Assembly: GCA_028278505.1 (NCBI GenBank) | Contig: JANQEG010000115.1 | Coordinates: forward strand, 1 to 64,000 | Source of the DNA: Rhodobiaceae bacterium | Lineage (GTDB): Bacteria; Pseudomonadota; Alphaproteobacteria; Rhizobiales; JAKPQE01 | Length of the DNA stretch: 64,000 bases | Direction: 5' to 3' | Shown: positions 2,645 through 24,258 of the stretch, in pieces | How positions within the stretch are numbered: position 1 is the stretch's first letter | Layout of the letters: each line of letters opens with the position of its first letter | Program-made: the position numbers and the translations under genes | The notes under the pieces: generated by a model | The model's database searches: none | What the model saw: the letters and a program-made list of their open reading frames with translations, nothing else | What the model was told of the DNA's origin: nothing

Positions 2645-3880
2645 CTAGGCGGTCTCGCGCCGGGCCGGCCGCTTCCGCGTCAGGATCGGCCAGTAGACGA
2701 GCGCGAACAGCGAAAATCCGGCGATCCACAGCGCCCCGGACAGAAACACCACTTCATAATAGGCCGCCGGCAGCAACTCGGTGCCGAAGCCGCGGACCAG
2801 GGCGGCGAGCGCGATCAGCACATAGCCGACGGCGATCGGCGGTGCGACCTTGAGCGGCCGCCCGGTGTGACCGAGCGCGGCCCGCGTCATCATCGCCAGC
2901 GTCATGCCGCCGATGGCGCCGATGCCGGTGATGTGGAGGGCTGCGACCTCGTGCGGCACGCCGAAGGCATGGGCCGCGGCCATCATCAGATAGCCGGCCG
3001 ACAGCATCGCAAAGCCGAGGTGAAGGCTCCACAATATCGGCTCGCCCAGGGTCTGGCGCCATTGCCAGCCGAGCAGCCGTGTCAGATTTGCCAGCCCGGC
3101 CACCGTCGCGATCAGGGCCAGCAGCCAGCCCGGCAGGCCGAGCGGCATCGCCACCGCAAAGGCAATCGCGGCGATGATCCCGACCCGTTCGGCCGGCGCG
3201 CGGGATTTCGGCAGCCGGGCCTCCGGGTCGCGCCTCAGCAGCGCGTTGCGGGTGAACGCCGGCACGACGCGGCCGCCGATGATGGTGATCAGCCCGGCGA
3301 TCGTAAAAAGGCCGAAGCGCAGCCCCGCCGCCGCGGTGTCTTCAGTCCAGCCGATCCATTCCAGGTGAACGAGCAGATTGGCGGCGGTCACCAGGGCGAG
3401 CAGCCCGACCACCACCAGATTGCGCGGCTGCGGATTGTTGCGCATCTGATGGGCGAGCCGCACGGCCAGGATCGGCAGGAACACCAGATCGATGACGGCG
3501 ACGAGGATGGCCGGCAGGAAGGCGGCGAACCAGACCGCGATCCGGCCCGCCAGCCACAGCCCGCCGACGCTGCTGACGAAGACGATTCGCGCCGGCGCCG
3601 TGTTGGTCCAGCTCGGCACCGCGGTCAGGAAAAATCCGGCGGTGACGGCAACCGCATAACCGAAGATCATCTCGTGGGCGTGCCACATATAGGGCGCGAC
3701 CGCGATGGTCGGCGCCTGGACCGCGCCGCCGCCGGCGTGAATGCCGAGCCAGACCAGCCACAGCGTCATCGACACCACCGCAAACAGCCCGGCCGACAGG
3801 AAGAAGAAGCGGAAACCGGCGGTCAGCACCACCGGTCCGGTTCGCTCAGTTTTTTTCGGGCGCGACCGCTCTTGCCGCAT
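2645..3880 (-). CDS. nnrS: NnrS family heme-copper membrane protein
   Basis: NnrS is a polytopic inner-membrane heme protein that relieves nitrosative stress caused by NO, and its genes usually belong to NnrR/DNR regulons. The 411-residue product has about twelve hydrophobic segments from residue 20 onward. Characteristic stretches are PYMWHAHEMIFGYAVAV, with two His near residue 68, and WSLHLGFAMLSAGY, HITGIGAIGGMTLAMM and RAALGHTGRPL in the C-terminal half. It diverges from nirS, and the operator at 4010-4023 is shared between the two. It ends just beyond the plus-strand terminator at 2599-2637. Confidence 0.92.
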   Translation of the reverse strand: MRQERSRPKKTERTGPVVLTAGFRFFFLSAGLFAVVSMTLWLVWLGIHAGGGAVQAPTIAVAPYMWHAHEMIFGYAVAVTAGFFLTAVPSWTNTAPARIVFVSSVGGLWLAGRIAVWFAAFLPAILVAVIDLVFLPILAVRLAHQMRNNPQPRNLVVVGLLALVTAANLLVHLEWIGWTEDTAAAGLRFGLFTIAGLITIIGGRVVPAFTRNALLRRDPEARLPKSRAPAERVGIIAAIAFAVAMPLGLPGWLLALIATVAGLANLTRLLGWQWRQTLGEPILWSLHLGFAMLSAGYLMMAAAHAFGVPHEVAALHITGIGAIGGMTLAMMTRAALGHTGRPLKVAPPIAVGYVLIALAALVRGFGTELLPAAYYEVVFLSGALWIAGFSLFALVYWPILTRKRPARRETA

Positions 3881-9577: not shown

Positions 9578-10749
9578 TGCGCGTAATCGCAACCCTCGCC
9601 GTCCTGCTCGGCCTCGCTGTGTCGGCGGCCGCCGACGACCTCCGCGGCACCGGCGATCTCGGCATCGTCATTGAGCGCGCGAGCGGATCGATCGCCATCG
9701 TCGACACCACCAATCACGCGATCCTCGGCCGTGTCGAAGGCCTCGGCGACGTTTCCCACGCCTCCGCCGTCTATTCCCGCGACGAACGCTATGTCTATGT
9801 GTTCGGCCGCGACGGCGGCCTGACCAAGATCGACATGCTGACCCGCAAGATCGTCGACCGTGTCGTCCAGTCCGGCAACGCCATCGGCGGTGCCATTTCC
9901 GACGACGGCCGGCTGATCGCGGTCTCCAATTACGAACCCGGCGGCGTAAAGGTGTTCAACGCCGAGACCCTCGACCTTGTCGCCGACATCCCCGCCGTCT
10001 ACGGCAAGGCCGGCGCCCGCTCCAAGACCGTCGGCCTCGTCGATGCGCCGGGCCGGCGCTTCGTCTTCTCGCTTTGGGATGCCGGCGAGACCTGGATCGT
10101 CGACTTCTCGACCGGAGAGACGCCGCAGGTGACCAAGTTCGCCGATATCGGCCTCAACCCCTATGACGGCCTGATCACCGGCGACGGCCGCCATTACCTC
10201 GCCGGACTTTTCGGCGAGGACGGCCTCGCCCATATCGACCTCTGGGCCGAGCCGCCGGCGCCGCGCCGCATCCTCGACAATTACGGCCGCGGCGAGGAGA
10301 AGCTGCCGGTCTATAAGATGCCGCATCTGGAAGGCTGGGCGCTCGCCGGCGACCGCTTCTTCCTGCCGGCGATCGGCCGCCACGAGGTGCTCGCCGTCGA
10401 TGCCCGCAGCTTCGAGGAGATCGGCCGTATCAAGGTCAAGGGCCAGCCGGTGTTTGCCGTGGCGCGCCCGGACGGACGCCAGGTCTGGGTCAATTTCGCC
10501 CTGCCCGACAACCGCTTCATCCAGGTGATCGACGTGCCGACGATGACGATCGTGCACGAGTTCGAACCGGGCCCGGCGGCGCTCCACATGGAGTTTTCGC
10601 CGCGCGGCCACGAGGTCTGGATTTCGGTGCGCGACGCCGACCGCGTCGACGTCTACGACACCAGGACATTCGCCAAGATCGCCGAACTGCCGGCGATGAA
10701 GCCGAGCGGCATCTTCTTCACCGCCCGCGCCCACAGGACCGGACTGTAA
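9574..10749 (+). CDS. nirF: Heme d1 biosynthesis protein NirF
   Basis: NirF acts in a late periplasmic step of heme d1 assembly and resembles the d1 propeller domain of NirS without the cytochrome c domain. The 391-residue product has a signal peptide (residues 1-20, ending SAAA) and propeller repeats such as LGIVIERASGSIAIVDTTNH and RYVYVFGRDGGLTKIDMLTR. The C-terminal ALHMEFSPRGHEVWISVRDADRVDVYD is homologous to the matching region of NirS. Length and position between nirC and nirDL are standard. Confidence 0.95.
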   Translation: MMRVIATLAVLLGLAVSAAADDLRGTGDLGIVIERASGSIAIVDTTNHAILGRVEGLGDVSHASAVYSRDERYVYVFGRDGGLTKIDMLTRKIVDRVVQSGNAIGGAISDDGRLIAVSNYEPGGVKVFNAETLDLVADIPAVYGKAGARSKTVGLVDAPGRRFVFSLWDAGETWIVDFSTGETPQVTKFADIGLNPYDGLITGDGRHYLAGLFGEDGLAHIDLWAEPPAPRRILDNYGRGEEKLPVYKMPHLEGWALAGDRFFLPAIGRHEVLAVDARSFEEIGRIKVKGQPVFAVARPDGRQVWVNFALPDNRFIQVIDVPTMTIVHEFEPGPAALHMEFSPRGHEVWISVRDADRVDVYDTRTFAKIAELPAMKPSGIFFTARAHRTGL

Positions 10750-10753
10750 GCGC

Positions 10754-11752
10754 ATGAGCCACGCCCTCGACACCATCGACCATATGCTGATCGAGCGCTG
10801 GCAGCGCGACCTGCCGCTCACCCCCTATCCATTCACCGCGCTCGGCGTGCCGCTGGGGCTTAACGAGGCTCAGGTGATCGCCCGCCTGAAGCGGTTTATC
10901 GACGGCGGCCTCGCCACCCGCATCGGCGCGGTGCTCGCCCCCAACACGGTCGGCGCCAGCACCCTTGCCGCGCTTTCCGTGCCGGCGGGGCGCCTGGAGG
11001 CGGTGGCGGCGATCGTCGATGCTGAGCCCGGCGTCAATCACAATTACGAGCGCGAGCACGATTTCAACATGTGGTTCGTGGTCACCGGCGCCGACCGCGC
11101 CGCCGTCGACGCCACGCTGCGACGGATCGCGGAGCGCACCGCGCTCAACGTGCTCGACCTGCCGCTCATGTGCGCCTACCACATCGATCTGGGCTTTCCG
11201 ATCAACGGCCGCCGCGCCGTCGTCGACAAGACCGCCCAGCCGCCCTGCACGCCCGACCTTGCGGCGATCCGGCCGCAGGACACGCCGCTCATGATCGCGC
11301 TCGAAGACGGGTTGCCGCTCGTTCCCCGGCCCTATTTGACGGTCGGCGAGGCGGTCGGCCTTTCCGAAGCCGCCGTGATCGACCGCCTCGGCGCCCTGCA
11401 GGCGGCCGGCATCGTCCGCCGGCTCGGCATCGTCGTGCGCCATCGCGCCGTCGGCTTTTCCGCCAACGCCATGGCCGTGTGGGACGTGCCCGACGATCGC
11501 ATCGACGACATCGGCCGGGCGTTCGCCGCCCACCCCTCGGTGACGCTCTGCTATCGCCGCCGGGTCGCGCCCGACTGGCCCTATGCGCTGTTCGTCATGG
11601 TCCACGCCAAGGCGCGCGATGCCGCCCTTCACGTCATCGACGAACTCAACCGGGAAAACGACACCGGCACGTTCAAGCAGGCCGTGCTCTTTTCGCGCCG
11701 CTGTTTCAAGCAGCGCGGCGCCCGGCTCAGTGCCGACAGGAAGGTCGCATGA
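10754..11752 (+). CDS. nirD: Siroheme decarboxylase NirDL (fused NirD-NirL)
   Basis: NirDL is one of the Lrp/AsnC-like proteins that decarboxylate siroheme to didecarboxysiroheme on the heme d1 pathway. At 332 residues it is a tandem fusion of two related domains of about 160 residues. Each domain has an N-terminal helix-turn-helix-like part and a C-terminal ferredoxin-like part. The NirD-like half has VNHNYEREHDFNMWFVV (residues about 96-112), which contains the conserved His of the family. The NirL-like half ends with VTLCYRRRVAPDWPYALFVMVH, with its own conserved Tyr-Arg-Arg stretch. The gene overlaps nirG by four bases. Confidence 0.92.
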   Translation: MSHALDTIDHMLIERWQRDLPLTPYPFTALGVPLGLNEAQVIARLKRFIDGGLATRIGAVLAPNTVGASTLAALSVPAGRLEAVAAIVDAEPGVNHNYEREHDFNMWFVVTGADRAAVDATLRRIAERTALNVLDLPLMCAYHIDLGFPINGRRAVVDKTAQPPCTPDLAAIRPQDTPLMIALEDGLPLVPRPYLTVGEAVGLSEAAVIDRLGALQAAGIVRRLGIVVRHRAVGFSANAMAVWDVPDDRIDDIGRAFAAHPSVTLCYRRRVAPDWPYALFVMVHAKARDAALHVIDELNRENDTGTFKQAVLFSRRCFKQRGARLSADRKVA

Positions 11753-12222
11753 CGGCCCTTGCCCAAGACGCGCCGGACATCGACGATACCGACAGGCACA
11801 TCGTCAACGCGCTGCAGGGCGGCTTTCCCCTCACCGAACGGCCGTTCCATGCTGAGGCCGGCCTGCTCGGCATTCCCGAGGGCGAACTGATCGCGCGCCT
11901 GCGTGGCATGCTCGAGGCCGGTCTGCTGACCCGTTTCGGGCCGCTCTACAACATCGACCGCATGGGCGGCAGCTTCTGCCTGTGCGCGCTCACGGCGCCC
12001 GCCGACCGCTTCGACGAGATCGCCGACATCGTCAACGGCTTCGCGGAAGTCGCGCACAATTACGAGCGCGACCACCGCCTCAACATGTGGTTCGTGCTCG
12101 CCCTGGAACGTCCGGAAGACGTTCCGGAACTGGTCGAACGGATCGAGGAAGCGACAGGTCTTCAGGTCTTCGCCTTTCCAAAGGAGGCGGAGTATTTCGT
12201 CGAATTCAAGGTCAGCCTATGA
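11749..12222 (+). CDS. nirG: Siroheme decarboxylase subunit NirG
   Basis: NirG is a 157-residue Lrp/AsnC-like protein of the siroheme decarboxylase complex. It resembles the first half of NirDL: an N-terminal helix-turn-helix-like region with FPLTERPFHAEAGLLGI and then HNYERDHRLNMWFVLAL around residues 103-119. Such proteins have lost DNA binding and act as enzymes together with NirH and NirDL. It overlaps nirDL by four bases and nirH by four bases, so the decarboxylase genes are translationally linked. Confidence 0.9.
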   Translation: MTALAQDAPDIDDTDRHIVNALQGGFPLTERPFHAEAGLLGIPEGELIARLRGMLEAGLLTRFGPLYNIDRMGGSFCLCALTAPADRFDEIADIVNGFAEVAHNYERDHRLNMWFVLALERPEDVPELVERIEEATGLQVFAFPKEAEYFVEFKVSL

Positions 12223-17337: not shown

Positions 17338-17742
17338 TCAATGCCCCGTCGCCCCGAACACCTTGTGCAGGCGCGCGTCATGGGTGCTGAAGTGGACGGA
17401 GAACCACGAGTCGAGCACGGCGCCGAGCTTGTCCGGCGCAAACGCCGCCTCGCCCGCCTCGTAGCCTTCCATGATATAGCGGATCGATTCCAGCAGCGTC
17501 TCGTGGTCAGCCTTGTGGGCGCCGTAGCCGTCATAGCCGCGTTCGCGCATCAGCCTTTCCTCGAGCGCGAAATGCCCGGTGACCGCGTTGAGCAGATCGC
17601 CGAAGAAGCCGACGACCTCATCCGGCGCCTCGCCCTCGCCGATCCGTTCGTAGAGCGTGTTGATCAGATCGATCAGTTCGCGGTGCTCGTAGTCGACATC
17701 CGCGATACCGGTGGCGTAGCGATCTTCCCATTTGATCAGCAT
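17338..17742 (-). CDS. Bacteriohemerythrin
   Basis: This is a canonical 134-residue bacteriohemerythrin. The diiron ligands are visible in order: His in DVDYEHRELI, H-x3-E in HFALEERLM, H-x3-H in HKADHETLL, and H-x4-D in HFSTHDARL. It begins with the typical IKWEDRYATGI. It is the last gene of the leftward operon headed by the heme-copper oxidoreductase genes, 13 bases after the gene at 17756. A role in supplying or buffering NO or oxygen for that enzyme is plausible from context. Confidence 0.9.
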   Translation of the reverse strand: MLIKWEDRYATGIADVDYEHRELIDLINTLYERIGEGEAPDEVVGFFGDLLNAVTGHFALEERLMRERGYDGYGAHKADHETLLESIRYIMEGYEAGEAAFAPDKLGAVLDSWFSVHFSTHDARLHKVFGATGH

Positions 17743-17755
17743 GACGGCATTTTCT

Positions 17756-18268
17756 TCAGTTCATCACAAAACCGCCGGTCTCGTGCCGGAAGTCGATGGA
17801 GAGGTTCTGGCCGGGGACAAGCGTCACCCGGCGCGTCGATTCGTAGTCGAAGCCTTCTTCGCGCGGCGTATCGCGCATGCGCGCGGTGATCGTATGGTCG
17901 CCGGCCGGAACCAGGAACCGCTCATAGAGCCGCGACGGCCCGTCCTTGGCGATCCCCGAAGGCGGCAGCGACTTGAAGAAGAGCTGCTCGCCGTTGACCT
18001 CGAGTTCGGTCACCACCGGCGGCCGTTCGCGCGGGCAGTCGAGCGGCACGCGCTTGTTCGGCGGCAGCTTCTGCAGCTCCTCGCGGCTGCGCCGCTTGCA
18101 CAGCGACGAGCGGTCGGAGCCGTGGGTGAACGAGAATTTCAGCACCGCCATGCCGTCCGGGATGCGGCTGTAGCGCGGCCAGTCGTCGAACACGGCGGCA
18201 AGCGCCGACAGCGCGACCGTGAAGACGAGCATGCCGATGATCCGCGGAAACGATACGCCGTCGATCAT
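17756..18268 (-). CDS. Membrane-anchored periplasmic protein of unknown function
   Basis: This 170-residue protein has one N-terminal membrane segment (about residues 9-27, IIGMLVFTVALSALAAVF) and then a soluble, probably beta-rich domain facing the periplasm. Two Cys (57 in SSLCKRR, 78 in DCPRER) could form a disulfide or bind a metal. The second half (FLVPAGDHTITARM and RVTLVPGQNLSIDF) looks like an immunoglobulin-like sandwich. I do not recognise the family. Its start overlaps the stop of the cytochrome b fusion gene by four bases, so it is probably a partner or assembly factor of that protein. Confidence 0.65.
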   Translation of the reverse strand: MIDGVSFPRIIGMLVFTVALSALAAVFDDWPRYSRIPDGMAVLKFSFTHGSDRSSLCKRRSREELQKLPPNKRVPLDCPRERPPVVTELEVNGEQLFFKSLPPSGIAKDGPSRLYERFLVPAGDHTITARMRDTPREEGFDYESTRRVTLVPGQNLSIDFRHETGGFVMN

Positions 18269-19851
18269 AGCGCCTTCTCCTCCGCCGCGCCTGCCGAAGA
18301 GGGTGCCGGCGGCATCCGCGTTCCGCTGCCGTCATCGGCAGGCAGCGCCTTCAGCCGGTCGACGAAGTCGGCCAACTCGCGCCTGAACACCCGCCCCTCG
18401 GTCGGCGACGCCCACACCGTCAGCAGCCTTTCGCGCGGCACCCGCTTGCGCAAATAGGGATCGCGCTCGCCGGCGATGCGCTGCTTGGTCCAGTCGACGC
18501 CGAGCCGGTTGTGGCACGATCGTTCGGCGCAGCCGGCGACCACCACGCCGTCGGCCAGGTCGCGCGACAACACATAGTCGATCAGCGGCGGCGGCGCCAT
18601 CGCCACGCAGGGCAGCGCCAGCACCGCGCCGTCATGCCGGGCGCCGGCCGAATGGGTGCAGGCGATCACCAGCACCCGCGGCGCCCCGGTCAGCGTTTCG
18701 GCGACCTCCTGAACCCGGCCGCGCACCTCCGTCAGCGGCAGGTCGGGAATGTCGATGCCGGTCGCCAGTTCGGCGGTGCGCCGGAACGGCGTCGACGACG
18801 GGCACGCCCCCATGCAGATGCCGCAGGACACGCATTTCGATGCATTCACCGCCACTTCATGGCTGTAGGGCAGGTCGTCGCTGCGCGGCGCCAATATCAG
18901 CGCCTCATAGGGGCAGTCGTCGACACAGCGCCCGCAGCCATTGCAATGGGCCAGATCGACCGCCGCCGGTTTCGGTTTCTTCAGCGGCGGCAGCCATGGC
19001 ATCAGCCCGATGAGAAGCGTGGCGACGGCAAGGAACAGCCAGACCAGTCCCGGATTGCTGTCGGCCAGCGGATAAAGCGGCAGGTAGAACCAGTCGAGGC
19101 CGACGGGACTGGGTTCCTGGGTGAGGTCCGCCGGCCCCTGGCTGAGCGCCGGCTGCCACAGCGAGACGATGACAAGGCCGACGACGATGACGCCGGCGAG
19201 TAGCCGCGGCGGGTTGACCTTCGGCCGCGAGATGCGCTGGATGTGCACCCACATGATGAACAAGAGGATCAGCGGCACCGCGACGTGCAGGAAGATCAGC
19301 AGCGTGAAGAAGCGGCTCGACAACACGCCGCCGCTCAGATAGTTGCGGGCGATCGGCTCACCGAAGATGGGCAGCCAGTCGAGCAGTTCGGTCGAGGTGA
19401 CCGCGACGTATTGGGCGAGCTTGTCCCAGATCAGCCAATAGCCGGTGATGCCGGAGATATAGACCATCCAGATCACCGGGATACCGGTGAACCAAGAGAA
19501 CCAGCGCACGCCGCGATAACGGTCGAGCGCGAACTCCCGCGCCAGATGCACCAGCATCATCACCACCATCAGATCGGAGGCATAGCGGTGCAGGCTGCGC
19601 ATGACGCCGGCATGATACCAGTGGTCGTAGGTGTACCACTCGATCGATTCGTAGGTGTTCTCCAGGCCGGTATCGTAGACCGCGAACAGGTAGATGCCCG
19701 ACGCCGCGACGATCCAGTAGAGGAAATAGCCGATCGCGCCGAGCTGTCCGAACGGGTTGAGCTTCGGACCGAAAATCTTGTCGAGCAGTCCTTCAGCAGA
19801 TTCGAATATACGCCTGAGGCCCGAGCGAAGGCTGGAAATCACCGCTTCCAA
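18265..19851 (-). CDS. Cytochrome b / 2[4Fe-4S] ferredoxin / MvhD-like fusion protein
   Basis: This is a 528-residue, three-part redox protein. Residues 30-285 form a membrane cytochrome b of the bc1/b6f N-terminal type, with two heme-binding His pairs 14 residues apart: His88/His102 and His189/His203. Residues 300-352 hold a two-cluster ferredoxin domain (CNGCGRCVDDC and CVSCGICMGAC). Residues about 390-485 resemble the hydrogenase iron-sulfur subunit family (MvhD/FlpD), with Cys398, Cys415, Cys441 and Cys446. It could move electrons between the quinone pool and a cytoplasmic carrier. Its place in the eNOR-like operon suggests a link to NO reduction. The domain calls come from motifs; the joint function is inference. 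Confidence 0.8.
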   Translation of the reverse strand: MEAVISSLRSGLRRIFESAEGLLDKIFGPKLNPFGQLGAIGYFLYWIVAASGIYLFAVYDTGLENTYESIEWYTYDHWYHAGVMRSLHRYASDLMVVMMLVHLAREFALDRYRGVRWFSWFTGIPVIWMVYISGITGYWLIWDKLAQYVAVTSTELLDWLPIFGEPIARNYLSGGVLSSRFFTLLIFLHVAVPLILLFIMWVHIQRISRPKVNPPRLLAGVIVVGLVIVSLWQPALSQGPADLTQEPSPVGLDWFYLPLYPLADSNPGLVWLFLAVATLLIGLMPWLPPLKKPKPAAVDLAHCNGCGRCVDDCPYEALILAPRSDDLPYSHEVAVNASKCVSCGICMGACPSSTPFRRTAELATGIDIPDLPLTEVRGRVQEVAETLTGAPRVLVIACTHSAGARHDGAVLALPCVAMAPPPLIDYVLSRDLADGVVVAGCAERSCHNRLGVDWTKQRIAGERDPYLRKRVPRERLLTVWASPTEGRVFRRELADFVDRLKALPADDGSGTRMPPAPSSAGAAEEKAL

Positions 19852-19907: not shown

Positions 19908-20729
19908 TCAAGCGGGCCGTTTCTTGAACCATTCGCGGGCGATCCACCCGGCAAAGACGAGAAGTGACAGGGCACCGAGAACGATCCCGGCGATCGTCGA
20001 GCCGTAGCGGGTCGTGTAGTGGCCGGTGCTCGGATCGTAGGCGGTGCAGAAATAGCGGAACCGGTCAATGAGGCCGGAAACGGTCAACGGCCGGTCCCAG
20101 CCGTAGACGGCGCCCTTCAGCGGCTCCATCAGCATCTGGATCGGGAACTCGTCGCCGTAGACATGGCGGTAGACGACGCCGTCGGCATCGAGGATCGTCG
20201 TCTGGGCGATGTGATCGAAGCCGCCGGCGGCAGCGGCGTAGCTGAAGCCGAGCTCGCCGAGCAGCGTCTTAAGCGTCGCCGCATCGGCGCTGGCGATCCG
20301 CCAATTGTCCAGATCGATGTCCTGGTCGATGGCGAACTGGGCCATTCGGGTCGGCGTGTCGTTGCGCGCGTCGAACCCGATGGTCAGCACGGTGAACCGC
20401 TCCGGCCCGAACAGCTCCAGCGCGTCCTCGACCGCCACCCGCAAATGCTGGGTGGTGATCGGGCAGACGGTGCTGCAGCTCGAATAGACCAGGTTGATGA
20501 TGACCGGATTGCCGGCCAGTTCGCCGAGCGAGAACCGCGCGCCCGAAATGTCGACAAGGGCATGGTCGCCGACCTTGCGGCCGATCGCCTCGCGGCTGAC
20601 CTTGATGACGGTTTCCGGATCGAGATGGCGGCTCTTGTCGGTCGCCTTGGTGGCGGCCAGGGCATCGCCGGAGCAAAGCCCGGCGAGCGCCATCAGCCCC
20701 GCCGCCGCAAGCGCAAGTCTCAGCCTCAT
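19908..20729 (-). CDS. Sco1/SenC family copper chaperone
   Basis: Sco proteins deliver copper to, or reduce, the CuA site of heme-copper oxidase subunit II. The 273-residue product has an N-terminal signal (residues 1-25) and a thioredoxin-like domain with the copper-binding CSTVCP (Cys85, Cys89) and the partner His173 (GGFDHIAQTT). It also has an extra C-terminal membrane segment at about 247-265 followed by basic residues, which many Sco proteins lack. It overlaps ctaB by four bases within the operon whose subunit II carries a full CuA motif. Confidence 0.88.
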   Translation of the reverse strand: MRLRLALAAAGLMALAGLCSGDALAATKATDKSRHLDPETVIKVSREAIGRKVGDHALVDISGARFSLGELAGNPVIINLVYSSCSTVCPITTQHLRVAVEDALELFGPERFTVLTIGFDARNDTPTRMAQFAIDQDIDLDNWRIASADAATLKTLLGELGFSYAAAAGGFDHIAQTTILDADGVVYRHVYGDEFPIQMLMEPLKGAVYGWDRPLTVSGLIDRFRYFCTAYDPSTGHYTTRYGSTIAGIVLGALSLLVFAGWIAREWFKKRPA

Positions 20730-21598
20730 ATCAGTGATCCGAACGCCGCATCCAGGGAGACGCCGAGCACCAGCGCCGGAAGCTGGATCAGCGAGGCGAC
20801 AAAGTTCGCCATTGCGGTCTTTTTGGTCGGATTCCGGTAAAGCTGCCAGCTTTTATAGACCAGATAGCCGCCGCCGAGACCGGCGCCGAGGCCGTAGAAG
20901 AGGCCCTTGCCGAAGGCGAGCGGAACCAGCGAGATCAGCGCCAGCGCCAGCGAATGGGTGAGCACGGCCGCCTTCCAGGCGTATTCCGGCACGACGATCG
21001 GCAGCATCGGCACGCCGGCGACCGCATAGTCGTCGCCGCGCGCCGCCGCAAGGCTCCAGAAATGCGGTGGTGTCCACAGAAAAAGGACGATGGCGAGGAT
21101 GTAGGGCGTGACCTGCGGCATCGGATCGATCGCCGCCGCCCCGGCAAGCACGGCGAACGAGCCGGCCAGCCCGCCGACGACGATGTTCCACACCGTGCGC
21201 CGCTTCAGCCAGACCGTATAGACGATGCCGTAGGTGAATGCCCCGAGGAAGATGAAGAACGCGGCAAGCGAACCACCGGCCACCGTCGCCAGCGCCAGCG
21301 ACGCCGCCAGCAAGAGGGCGAAGCCAACGGGCCACCAGGCGCTTTCCGGCAGTGCCCCGCTGGCGAACGGCCGGTTGCGGGTGCGCCGCATAATCCGGTC
21401 GATATCGCGCTCATAATATTGGTTGAAGGCCCCTGCGGCGCCCGAAGCGCCCATGACGGCGATCACCAGCGCCAGGGTTTTCCAGAACGGCGGCATCGCG
21501 CCTTCGCTTGCCGCAATCCCGGCAATCGCACTCGCCGCGATCGCGATCGCGATCCTGAGTTTCAGGACGGAGATCGTCATTTTGACCGCGGCGAGCAT
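20726..21598 (-). CDS. ctaB: Protoheme IX farnesyltransferase (heme O synthase)
   Basis: This polytopic membrane enzyme attaches a farnesyl group to heme B, giving heme O, the precursor of heme A. The 290-residue product has the UbiA-family prenyl-diphosphate motif NQYYERDIDRIMRRTRNRP near the N-terminus and the second Asp-rich area around LAAARGDDYAVAGVPMLP. I set the start at 21598 because AAGGAG lies at proper distance; a GTG at 21619 is in frame. With ctaA at 25169 it suggests that the adjacent oxidoreductase uses heme O or A. Confidence 0.93.
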   Translation of the reverse strand: MLAAVKMTISVLKLRIAIAIAASAIAGIAASEGAMPPFWKTLALVIAVMGASGAAGAFNQYYERDIDRIMRRTRNRPFASGALPESAWWPVGFALLLAASLALATVAGGSLAAFFIFLGAFTYGIVYTVWLKRRTVWNIVVGGLAGSFAVLAGAAAIDPMPQVTPYILAIVLFLWTPPHFWSLAAARGDDYAVAGVPMLPIVVPEYAWKAAVLTHSLALALISLVPLAFGKGLFYGLGAGLGGGYLVYKSWQLYRNPTKKTAMANFVASLIQLPALVLGVSLDAAFGSLI

Positions 21599-21637
21599 CA
21601 CTTCACACTCCTTCGTCACTAAGTGCCGGGAACCCCA

Positions 21638-23362
21638 TCAACGGAACAGCCAGAGCTCTGACAGATATTTCCAGTTGATGAAGTAGTAGAGCACGAACGA
21701 GACGAAGAAGATCGCCACCAGCACGGCCGTGCCCGGAAGTTTGGTCGTCGCATGACTGCCATATTCCGAGGCCGCCTTGCCGCCGCCCGCATGCAGCGGG
21801 AAGGTCAGCTGATGACCGCTCTGCACCTTCTTGCCGAACAGCACCGTGCCGACGACAACGAGGATGAAGACCGCACCGCCGACCGACGCCAAGAGGGCGC
21901 CGATGCCGTTGAGGCCCATCATCAGGAACGCGCCCGCCGACGGCTCATAGCCGATGACCGCGTCCGAGAAGGTGATGTCCCAGTGCCGGCGCGGCATGCC
22001 GAGCGTGCCGGCGCCCATCATGAACAGCGAGATCATGCCGGCGCCGATGCCGAACAGATAGGGCTGCCATTTGGCGAGCGTCGGCCACACGATCTCGCGC
22101 TGGAAGATCAGCGGCAGCACCAGATAGGTCGCCGCCATGAAGGCGAGCGTGGTGCCGGCGACGACGGTGCCGTGGAAGTGTCCGGGCACGTAGAGCGTGT
22201 TGTGCATCAGCACGTTGAGCTGCTCGGTGCCGAGCACGACGCCGGAGATGCCGCCGATGAATCCGAACATCACCAGCGACAGGAACATGCCGGAGAAGGC
22301 CGGATGCCCCCAGGGCGCCTTGCGCAGCCATTCGAACATGCCCTTGTCGAAGCCGTTGCGCCGCTGCGCCGCCTCGATCGAGCCCGGAACCGTGAGGCCG
22401 TGCACCATCGAACCGACGACGGCGAGGTACATCATGTAGCTGGTGTTGACGATCTTCCAGCTCGGGTCCAAGCCGGGTTCGGCGAGCAGATGGTGCGCCG
22501 AAGCAAGCTGCAGGAACAGGATGTACATCAGGAACGCCGTGCGGCTGACCTTTTCCGACAGCGGCTTGGCGCCGACCAGCAACGCCGCGATCATGTACCA
22601 GATGGCGACATGGGCGGAGACGTTGATCTGCTGCGAGGAGTGGCCCATGCCCCACCACACGACCTTGTAGAGCAGCGGGTCGATATTGCTGATCAGACCC
22701 ACCGACCACAACAGCGTCGGGATCAGGATGATGGCGCCGGACGCCAGCGTGAAGACGGCGATGATCGCCGCCGTCAGCGCACCGAAGGTGACCAGCGGTA
22801 TCGAGCCCTCATAGGTGCCCTCCTCCTTGGCGATCACCAGGGTCGCAAAGAAGATGCCGACCGCAATCAGCGTACCGACCGCAAACAGGATCAGCGACAG
22901 GTAGAAGATCGGCTCGGCCATCAGCGGCGGATAGGAGGTGAACATCACCGACGATTCGCCGCGCAGCACCGCGACATTGGCCAGAACCGCGCCGGCCACC
23001 ATCAACAGGAAGGCGAGCCAGGCGAGTTTGGGTGTCGCCAGCCTGCTGTTCAACAATATCGCCGAGGCGAAATAGAGCACCGCCACCTCGAAGAAGATGA
23101 TCCAGAACAACAGCACGTTGGCGCCGTGCCCGGTCAGGACCAGATAGAACAGTTCGGCGGGAAGCAGGTGCACCGCCGGCCAGCGCGTCAGCGCCACCAA
23201 CAGGCCCATGACGCCGCCGAGCAGCAGGAAGATCACCGCGGCCACCGCGTTGACCTTGATCAGGGTCTGGGCTGCGGTATCGACCTTGAGGCCGGTGAAT
23301 TGGCAAGTGCGGAACTTGGCGGCGCGGCCGCCGATGGTTCCGACAGCGGTTTCGGCAGTCAT
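21638..23362 (-). CDS. Atypical heme-copper oxidoreductase subunit I, probable NO reductase of eNOR type
   Basis: This 574-residue protein of 12-14 helices keeps all six metal-binding His of the superfamily: His79 and His397 for the low-spin heme, His395 for the high-spin heme, and His241, His290 and His291 for CuB. In oxygen reductases a Tyr four residues after the first CuB ligand is covalently linked to it; here that position is Gln245 (GHSSQQINVSAH). Loss of this Tyr argues against ordinary oxygen reduction. It fits the alternative NO reductase class called eNOR, assigned from memory of that work. The upstream DNR-type operator and neighbouring nirS support NO reduction. It overlaps subunit II by four bases. 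Confidence 0.85.
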   Translation of the reverse strand: MTAETAVGTIGGRAAKFRTCQFTGLKVDTAAQTLIKVNAVAAVIFLLLGGVMGLLVALTRWPAVHLLPAELFYLVLTGHGANVLLFWIIFFEVAVLYFASAILLNSRLATPKLAWLAFLLMVAGAVLANVAVLRGESSVMFTSYPPLMAEPIFYLSLILFAVGTLIAVGIFFATLVIAKEEGTYEGSIPLVTFGALTAAIIAVFTLASGAIILIPTLLWSVGLISNIDPLLYKVVWWGMGHSSQQINVSAHVAIWYMIAALLVGAKPLSEKVSRTAFLMYILFLQLASAHHLLAEPGLDPSWKIVNTSYMMYLAVVGSMVHGLTVPGSIEAAQRRNGFDKGMFEWLRKAPWGHPAFSGMFLSLVMFGFIGGISGVVLGTEQLNVLMHNTLYVPGHFHGTVVAGTTLAFMAATYLVLPLIFQREIVWPTLAKWQPYLFGIGAGMISLFMMGAGTLGMPRRHWDITFSDAVIGYEPSAGAFLMMGLNGIGALLASVGGAVFILVVVGTVLFGKKVQSGHQLTFPLHAGGGKAASEYGSHATTKLPGTAVLVAIFFVSFVLYYFINWKYLSELWLFR

Positions 23363-23961
23363 TGCGTCACCTCCCCGTCCGCCAGTTTGCTGACCGCCAC
23401 CGGCGACTGGCCGCTGTCGGCGGTCTTCTTGTCGACGACGATGATCTTGCCGGTCATGACGTGATGGCCGAGGCCGCAGTATTCGTTACAGATAATCCCG
23501 AATTCACCGGTCTCGGTCGGCGTCAGCGTGATCACGTGCTCGTAACCCGGATGGATCTGAATGTTGATGTTGGTCGGCAGCAGCGAGAAGCCGTGCTGCA
23601 GGTCGACCGACGAGATGTGGAACCGGTAGCTCTGATCCTTCTCAAGCTGCAGGATCGGCCACCAGTCGAAGGTCCGGCCGAGCATGTAGGCATCGCCGCC
23701 GGGCGGCGGCGCGACGATCGGCACGCCCTCTTCTTCGCCGACCGTATGTTCCTCGGCAAAGGCCTCGACCTTCGCTTCGTAGTTCGAGGGCAGAATACGA
23801 TAGGCTTCCGGGCTCAGATTCTGTTCGCCGATGAAGTGCCAGGCGATCATGAAGCCGAACATGAAAAAGCCCCACAGGACGGCGATGATCACCCAGACGA
23901 GTTCGACCTTCTCAATCGGCTCTTTCCACCAGATACGTTGTTCAGGTGGCAGGACAGCCAT
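23359..23961 (-). CDS. Heme-copper oxidoreductase subunit II with CuA site
   Basis: This 200-residue membrane-anchored protein passes electrons from a soluble donor to subunit I. One membrane segment lies at about residues 20-42. The periplasmic cupredoxin domain carries a complete binuclear CuA motif: His123 (DLQHGF), Cys158, Glu160, Cys162, His166 and Met169 (C-x3-C-x3-H-x2-M). It is shorter than typical aa3 subunit II and close to the B-type layout with one helix. A full CuA means the donor is probably a cytochrome c or cupredoxin rather than quinol. The ATG at 23961 has a GGGAGG ribosome site. Confidence 0.92.
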   Translation of the reverse strand: MAVLPPEQRIWWKEPIEKVELVWVIIAVLWGFFMFGFMIAWHFIGEQNLSPEAYRILPSNYEAKVEAFAEEHTVGEEEGVPIVAPPPGGDAYMLGRTFDWWPILQLEKDQSYRFHISSVDLQHGFSLLPTNINIQIHPGYEHVITLTPTETGEFGIICNEYCGLGHHVMTGKIIVVDKKTADSGQSPVAVSKLADGEVTQ

Positions 23962-23979: not shown

Positions 23980-24156
23980 TTATTGGGCAAGCGGGATGGA
24001 GGCAACTTCCATCACGCCCCAGATTGTGTAGAGCACCGTCGGTACGACGACACCGAGGAACAGCAGCAGGAACGGGCTATCGAGTATCCGCTGCATCATC
24101 GGTATCGGTTCCTGCCGCTCGGCCGGTCCCGTCTCTTCGGATTGAGTGTCAGACAT
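23980..24156 (-). CDS. Small single-helix membrane subunit of the oxidoreductase
   Basis: A 58-residue reading frame begins MSDTQSEETG. It has a polar N-terminus, a segment with MMQRILDSP, and one strong membrane helix (PFLLLFLGVVVPTVLYTIWG, about residues 28-47). GGGGGA lies nine bases before the ATG. It is the first gene after the operator at 24245 and sits 18 bases before subunit II. Its place and form resemble the small helix subunits (IIa/CbaD-like) of ba3-type oxidases. I assign it as a structural subunit by context; no enzymatic motif is present. Confidence 0.7.
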   Translation of the reverse strand: MSDTQSEETGPAERQEPIPMMQRILDSPFLLLFLGVVVPTVLYTIWGVMEVASIPLAQ

Positions 24157-24244: not shown

Positions 24245-24258
24245 TTGACTTTCGTCAA
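24245..24258. promoter_or_regulatory. DNR/FNR-type operator of the eNOR-like operon
   Basis: Perfect palindrome TTGACTTTCGTCAA, 89 bases upstream of the first gene of the leftward heme-copper operon and 162 bases before the rightward thioredoxin-like gene. It is the fifth copy in the window of the TTGAC-N4-GTCAA operator, which places the operon in the same regulon as nap, nnrS and nir. Confidence 0.82.

Follow-up and report, generated by a model that had tools for sequence, protein, structure and literature searches.

Why is a membrane cytochrome b, joined in one chain to iron-sulfur domains, encoded beside a heme-copper enzyme of the eNOR type, and in which direction would it carry electrons? 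Both genes lie in one operon of the window, by which we mean the whole stretch of 64,000 nucleotides analysed here. Many environmental bacteria carry eNOR, which produces N2O. A sequence-only reading of the window had described a 528-residue fusion in an NO-responsive operon, linked it to the eNOR-like enzyme and proposed that it passes electrons between quinol and a cytoplasmic carrier. The features of the operon, including the gene at 17756 (hereafter o170), are the following.

17338-17742, minus strand: bacteriohemerythrin, downstream, conserved in most alphaproteobacterial loci
17756-18268, minus strand: o170, an N-terminal membrane anchor and an Ig-like beta-sandwich, predicted periplasmic
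18265-19851, minus strand: fusion of cytochrome b, two-[4Fe-4S] ferredoxin and FlpD domains, 528 residues, TTG start (start codon unproven)
18343-18675, minus strand: FlpD/MvhD-like domain of the fusion, residues 393-503, with C398, C415, C441 and C446
18790-18966, minus strand: two-cluster [4Fe-4S] ferredoxin domain of the fusion, residues 296-354
18994-19782, minus strand: bc1-type diheme cytochrome b domain of the fusion, residues 24-286, helices A-F, with H88/H102/H189/H203 and a PEWY-like motif, L252-D253-W254-F255
19908-20729, minus strand: SCO1/SenC-type copper chaperone
20726-21619, minus strand: ctaB/cyoE heme O synthase
21638-23362, minus strand: eNOR subunit I, heme-copper family, GHSSQQ with Gln replacing the oxidase Tyr
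23359-23961, minus strand: eNOR subunit II, CuA motif (H...CNEYCGLGHHVM)
23980-24156, minus strand: 58-residue single-TM ORF, probable small eNOR subunit
24245-24258: FNR/DNR-type box TTGACTTTCGTCAA, upstream of the eNOR operon

On the minus strand, the box is followed by the 58-residue ORF, subunit II, subunit I, heme O synthase, SCO, the fusion, o170 and bacteriohemerythrin. The published mark of eNOR is the replacement of Tyr by Gln in subunit I (PMC8756737). This Gln is present in the window, and the motif GHSSQQ is found in nearly all mapped relatives examined, with HSTQQ or HGAQQ in L093, Thermomicrobium and Thermus. Subunit II has CxxxCxxxHxxM and the upstream His, aligned with the proteins of Thermus and Thermomicrobium. 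By these two marks, which it shares with eNOR, the operon encodes a predicted eNOR. In the literature searched, eNOR consists of subunits I and II only, whereas in Pseudomonadota the genes of the fusion and o170 come in addition, although the primary eNOR report may list them. In Alphaproteobacteria, Thermomicrobium and Thermus, small single-TM ORFs (41-60 residues) immediately precede subunit II (the one in the window; L145:8238-8393; L146:8352-8477; L144:9771-9953) and end alike in WG...IP; they probably encode a small eNOR subunit.

Regulation by NO is supported by the TTGAC-N4-GTCAA box upstream of the operon, which is of the FNR/DNR type. Five exact boxes occur in the window (at 1477, 2433, 4010, 8290 and 24245) against 0.01 expected, and one of them precedes the gene of the cd1 nitrite reductase (nirS). 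A gene at 1693-2409 was called a CRP/FNR-family regulator by reading the sequence, with no profile, and an NnrS-like gene at 2645-3880 (minus strand) and nirS were named in the same way. The five boxes probably define an NO regulon that includes these two genes and nirS.

The triple fusion described earlier is confirmed by Pfam matches and invariant ligands. The ORF starts with TTG at 19851 and stops at 18265-18267. Its matches to Cytochrome_B (residues 24-206, 4e-19), to the two-cluster ferredoxin (298-353) and to FlpD (409-503, 2.9e-10; 40.7 bits against a cut-off of 22.3) all exceed the curated cut-offs. A pattern search through 84,980 species genomes found 43 full-length relatives with 53-67% identity, hence the ORF is not a chance one. 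In 30 of 30 diverse FlpD-type relatives, all the ligands are invariant: the four heme His (H88, H102, H189, H203), the eight ferredoxin Cys (303, 306, 309, 313, 340, 343, 346, 350) and the four Cys of FlpD (398, 415, 441, 446). Occupancy by clusters would follow from these ligands. Among the same 30 relatives, no further His, Cys or Met is well conserved except M84 and M418, and no copper site is evident. In-frame TGA or TAA codons among the relatives are the natural stop codons, past which the reading frame had been extended, and selenocysteine was discarded. The AlphaFold model (pLDDT 75.8) matches the cytochrome b of bc1 in Foldseek (E 1e-5). Given six membrane helices and the homology with bc1, both the ferredoxin and the FlpD part should be cytoplasmic.

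In sequence the cytochrome b part is similar to cytochrome b6, but extends beyond helix D with helices E and F. It shares with cytochrome b6/bc1 the His pairs in helices B and D, the cd loop and a PEWY-like motif before helix F, here LDWF. Its D253-W254 is invariant in FlpD-type relatives, where W142-D143, also Qo-like, is conserved. The fusion has LDWFYLPLYPL at the position where the bc1 proteins of the same genome have PEWYYLPFYAIL or PEWYFLPFYAIL, and this segment is a putative remnant Qo motif. Unlike cytochrome b6/bc1, the fusion stops after helix F and bears cytoplasmic iron-sulfur modules, and neither a Rieske nor a c1/f gene is found among its operon neighbours. A role as replacement of bc1 was rejected, as the genome has two other bc1-type cytochrome b genes, each with an adjoining Rieske gene. 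Among curated families, the cytochrome b half best matches ExtP and ExtQ of the Geobacter ext operon for selenite/tellurite. The scores (95.8 bits for ExtP, NCBIfam NF040969; 25.6 for ExtQ) are far below the cut-offs of 290 and 150, and ExtP and ExtQ are two proteins without cytoplasmic modules. The other half resembles systems of the HdrA2/MvhD/QmoB type: residues 294-504 match the C-terminal end of HdrA2 (58 bits), and the ferredoxin and FlpD part also matches MvhD of the solved Hdr-Mvh complexes. Unlike these, the fusion lacks the FAD/HdrA part and is bound to a membrane cytochrome b. In the source genome, which is 85% complete, the only FlpD is the fusion itself and no HdrA2 match is above the cut-off.

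The fusion is a near-universal companion of eNOR in Pseudomonadota. All 43 full-length relatives come from records labelled Alphaproteobacteria or unresolved Proteobacteria, and every locus that is long enough keeps the order subunit II, subunit I, ctaB, SCO, fusion and o170, usually followed by hemerythrin in the mapped alphaproteobacterial loci. Among 398 Pseudomonadota genomes, 34 have the fusion, 30 have eNOR subunit I and 29 have both. The fusion is thus present in 29 of 30 genomes with eNOR and in 5 of the 368 others (Fisher p = 8e-38, a value that treats genomes as independent despite their shared ancestry, although the pair spans 11 families). In the exception, G070, the contig runs out 52 bp beyond the SCO match, at the place expected for the start of the fusion. 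The five genomes with the fusion and no detected subunit I are all incomplete or fragmented assemblies, and two of them (G122 and G279) have contigs that break off within the operon. In a second family (f44) the same gene set occurs together in 22 of 23 genomes, the 23rd being truncated. The proposed link with the eNOR-like enzyme is therefore borne out, and homologs do not lie predominantly apart from heme-copper genes. Of the 398 genomes, 52 have the heme d1 gene nirF, 28 of them with the fusion and 24 without it. Hence, the fusion follows eNOR rather than nitrite reductase or heme d1, and the idea that it is a part of the nirS/heme d1 system was rejected. In one family (f48) the pair of fusion and o170 adjoins nirS, away from eNOR and SCO. 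On plasmids of Thermus and Thermomicrobium that carry eNOR loci the fusion is absent, so that eNOR in itself seems able to do without it.

The sequence-only reading had pointed to o170 as a possible bound partner. Its gene overlaps that of the fusion by 4 bp (ATGA), and every mapped locus of sufficient length has a cytochrome b fusion next to it. In one isolate (L031, Roseomonas sp. HF4, 10001-12046) o170 is joined to the C terminus of the fusion in a single frame of 682 residues, giving a four-part chain. With this gene fusion and the conserved adjacency, o170 as the periplasmic partner of the fusion is well supported, though not proven. A second such chain, in L040, is not credited, as its FlpD end looks frameshifted. 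The predicted structure of o170 is a membrane-anchored beta-sandwich (pLDDT 94), with only weak beta-sandwich matches in Foldseek, none with E below 0.001, and its sequence has no cofactor motif. Its two Cys are missing jointly in L084 and L093; they are therefore no essential redox site, a redox-active metal or disulfide at this place was rejected, and they behave as expected of a structural disulfide. The identification of o170 with FixH or with the C-terminal domain of FixG was also rejected (no profile match, hhalign probability under 2%).

The cytoplasmic part of the fusion has a substitute. In the f44 family, for which 201 genomes were searched, the FlpD-type fusion is present in 23 genomes, and 22 of these also carry a sister protein, the FNR type, in which the same cytochrome b is followed by a [2Fe-2S] ferredoxin, a FAD domain and an NAD-binding domain (Fer2, FAD_binding_6 and NAD_binding_1 in the one member scanned with Pfam, the motifs being checked in the rest). 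The sister is usually in the same operon as eNOR; L185 and L200 have it in divergent orientation, directly before subunit II on its upstream side. Some genomes have the order SCO, FlpD type, o170 and, further on, FNR type; others have SCO, FNR type, o170 and FlpD type. Nearly all FNR-type proteins keep the His pairs, the DWF motif and the reductase motifs. In the cytochrome b tree, which has a distant and long-branched bc1 outgroup and a few FNR-type rows assigned by locus position, the FlpD types form one clade (95/83), with the FNR types alongside as sister group. The same cytochrome b thus occurs with either of two input modules, 2x[4Fe-4S]-FlpD or [2Fe-2S]-FAD-NAD(P)H, and this exchange makes the cytoplasmic part an exchangeable module. 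Since one of the two is an NAD(P)H reductase, both are most simply electron entry points. The transmembrane NAD(P)H reductases of the NOX/FRE/STEAP kind provide a parallel, the FNR-type sister likewise having an FNR module on a diheme membrane domain. The difference is that here the membrane part is a bc1-type cytochrome b with no ferric-reductase domain, and that the protein of the window has FlpD and no FNR.

NAD(P)H can reduce b hemes, and quinol cannot reduce NAD(P)+ without energy input. Together with the NAD(P)H-reductase module of the sister, these energetics favour a flow from the cytoplasm towards the membrane and periplasm. We propose, with somewhat less than even confidence, that the fusion and o170 form a transmembrane conduit that carries electrons from cytoplasm to periplasm and is dedicated to eNOR in Pseudomonadota. 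A cytoplasmic reductant would donate electrons at the FlpD domain. The two [4Fe-4S] clusters would relay them to the b heme of the cytoplasmic side and, across the membrane, to that of the periplasmic side, and their exit would be a remodelled Qo-like pocket that faces the periplasm, beside o170. The direction, the exit site and the exact acceptor are what we infer from these data. The electrons might keep the copper, heme or thiol steps of eNOR assembly in the periplasm reduced, or might supply eNOR and shared periplasmic carriers without the bc1 complex. These two roles are at about even odds: the position of the fusion after SCO and ctaB suggests assembly, and the displacement of the pair to nirS in f48 suggests supply to carriers common to NirS and eNOR. 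A wider claim, which we hold a shade more hesitantly than the conduit itself, is that a bc1-type diheme cytochrome b was rebuilt without Rieske into a transmembrane reductase with exchangeable cytoplasmic inputs, obligate in the eNOR system of Pseudomonadota and delivering cytoplasmic reductant to the periplasmic face. We know of no earlier cytochrome-bc1-type scaffold that serves as a transmembrane reductase with swappable cytoplasmic modules, and this would be the first.

The retained Qo-like residues suggest quinone chemistry and speak against the conduit. The lack of an evident copper site, the joint loss of the two Cys of o170, the place beside nirS in f48 and the absence of the fusion from the Thermus and Thermomicrobium loci also count against it. 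The Qo-like residues support the best of the alternatives, an NAD(P)H/ferredoxin:quinone oxidoreductase in which electrons from the cytoplasm cross the b hemes and reduce quinone at a Qo-like site of the periplasmic side, so that the quinol pool and, in turn, bc1, cytochrome c, NirS and eNOR would be supplied. W142-D143 and D253-W254 in the FlpD type, DWF in nearly all of the FNR type, and the two bc1-type cytochrome b genes with their Rieske genes are consistent with it. However, periplasmic-side reduction of quinone by electrons drawn from the cytoplasm would dissipate the proton-motive force, as a matter of general knowledge, and such an enzyme has no need for a tie to eNOR. We regard it as unlikely.

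The model proposed initially, taken as a flow in which quinol gives up electrons at the periplasmic side and these travel by way of the b hemes and the cytoplasmic clusters to FlpD and a cytoplasmic acceptor, as in NarI, agrees with the bc1-type cytochrome b and its PEWY-like motif, and with the hemerythrin gene that comes next in most alphaproteobacterial loci. It is not favoured, as the NAD(P)H-reductase module on the sister in the same operon and redox energetics point the opposite way, NAD(P)+ being too negative for quinol. In addition, a Rieske-like partner for bifurcation is missing, o170 has no cofactor motif, and no HdrA-like partner is recognised in the source genome at its 85% completeness. 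We consider this direction improbable.

An assembly factor proper, similar to CcoG, has an equally small chance. CcoG (FixG/RdxA) is a cupric reductase encoded downstream of the cbb3 genes, with two [4Fe-4S] clusters and an Ig-like periplasmic domain (PMC7558416). The fusion and o170 offer the same combination downstream of a heme-copper enzyme, right after SCO and ctaB, and might give Cu(I) to SCO and to the CuA and CuB sites of eNOR. Yet the fusion has a bc1-type heme domain, and its homology with FixG is confined to the ferredoxin motif (only columns 301-353 align in hhalign), so that it does not belong to the CcoG/FixG family. Moreover, o170 resembles neither FixH nor the C-terminal domain of FixG, the genome already has FixG and FixH elsewhere, conserved copper ligands are absent, and the fusion-o170 pair leaves SCO to join nirS in f48.

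Relative to the two-subunit enzyme of the literature searched, eNOR of Pseudomonadota is accompanied by one more component, a wired cytochrome b with o170, which would matter for expression, assay and modelling of the enzyme. In addition, the fusion marks denitrifiers with eNOR at the sequence level, their enzyme usually being annotated as cytochrome oxidase.

Two further features were seen in these operons. In families f39 and f44 there is a second heme-copper-like protein of about 460 residues with a COX1 Pfam match (L093:11490-12866, L084:469-1875 and further ORFs); three aligned members keep the heme His and one CuB His and miss the HH pair, and the protein is probably without CuB. In the f39 family, which has small genomes, the FlpD-type fusion is duplicated in tandem (G137, G202, G228 and G279; for example L093:7632-10994 and L086), and the aligned copies keep the cofactor ligands.
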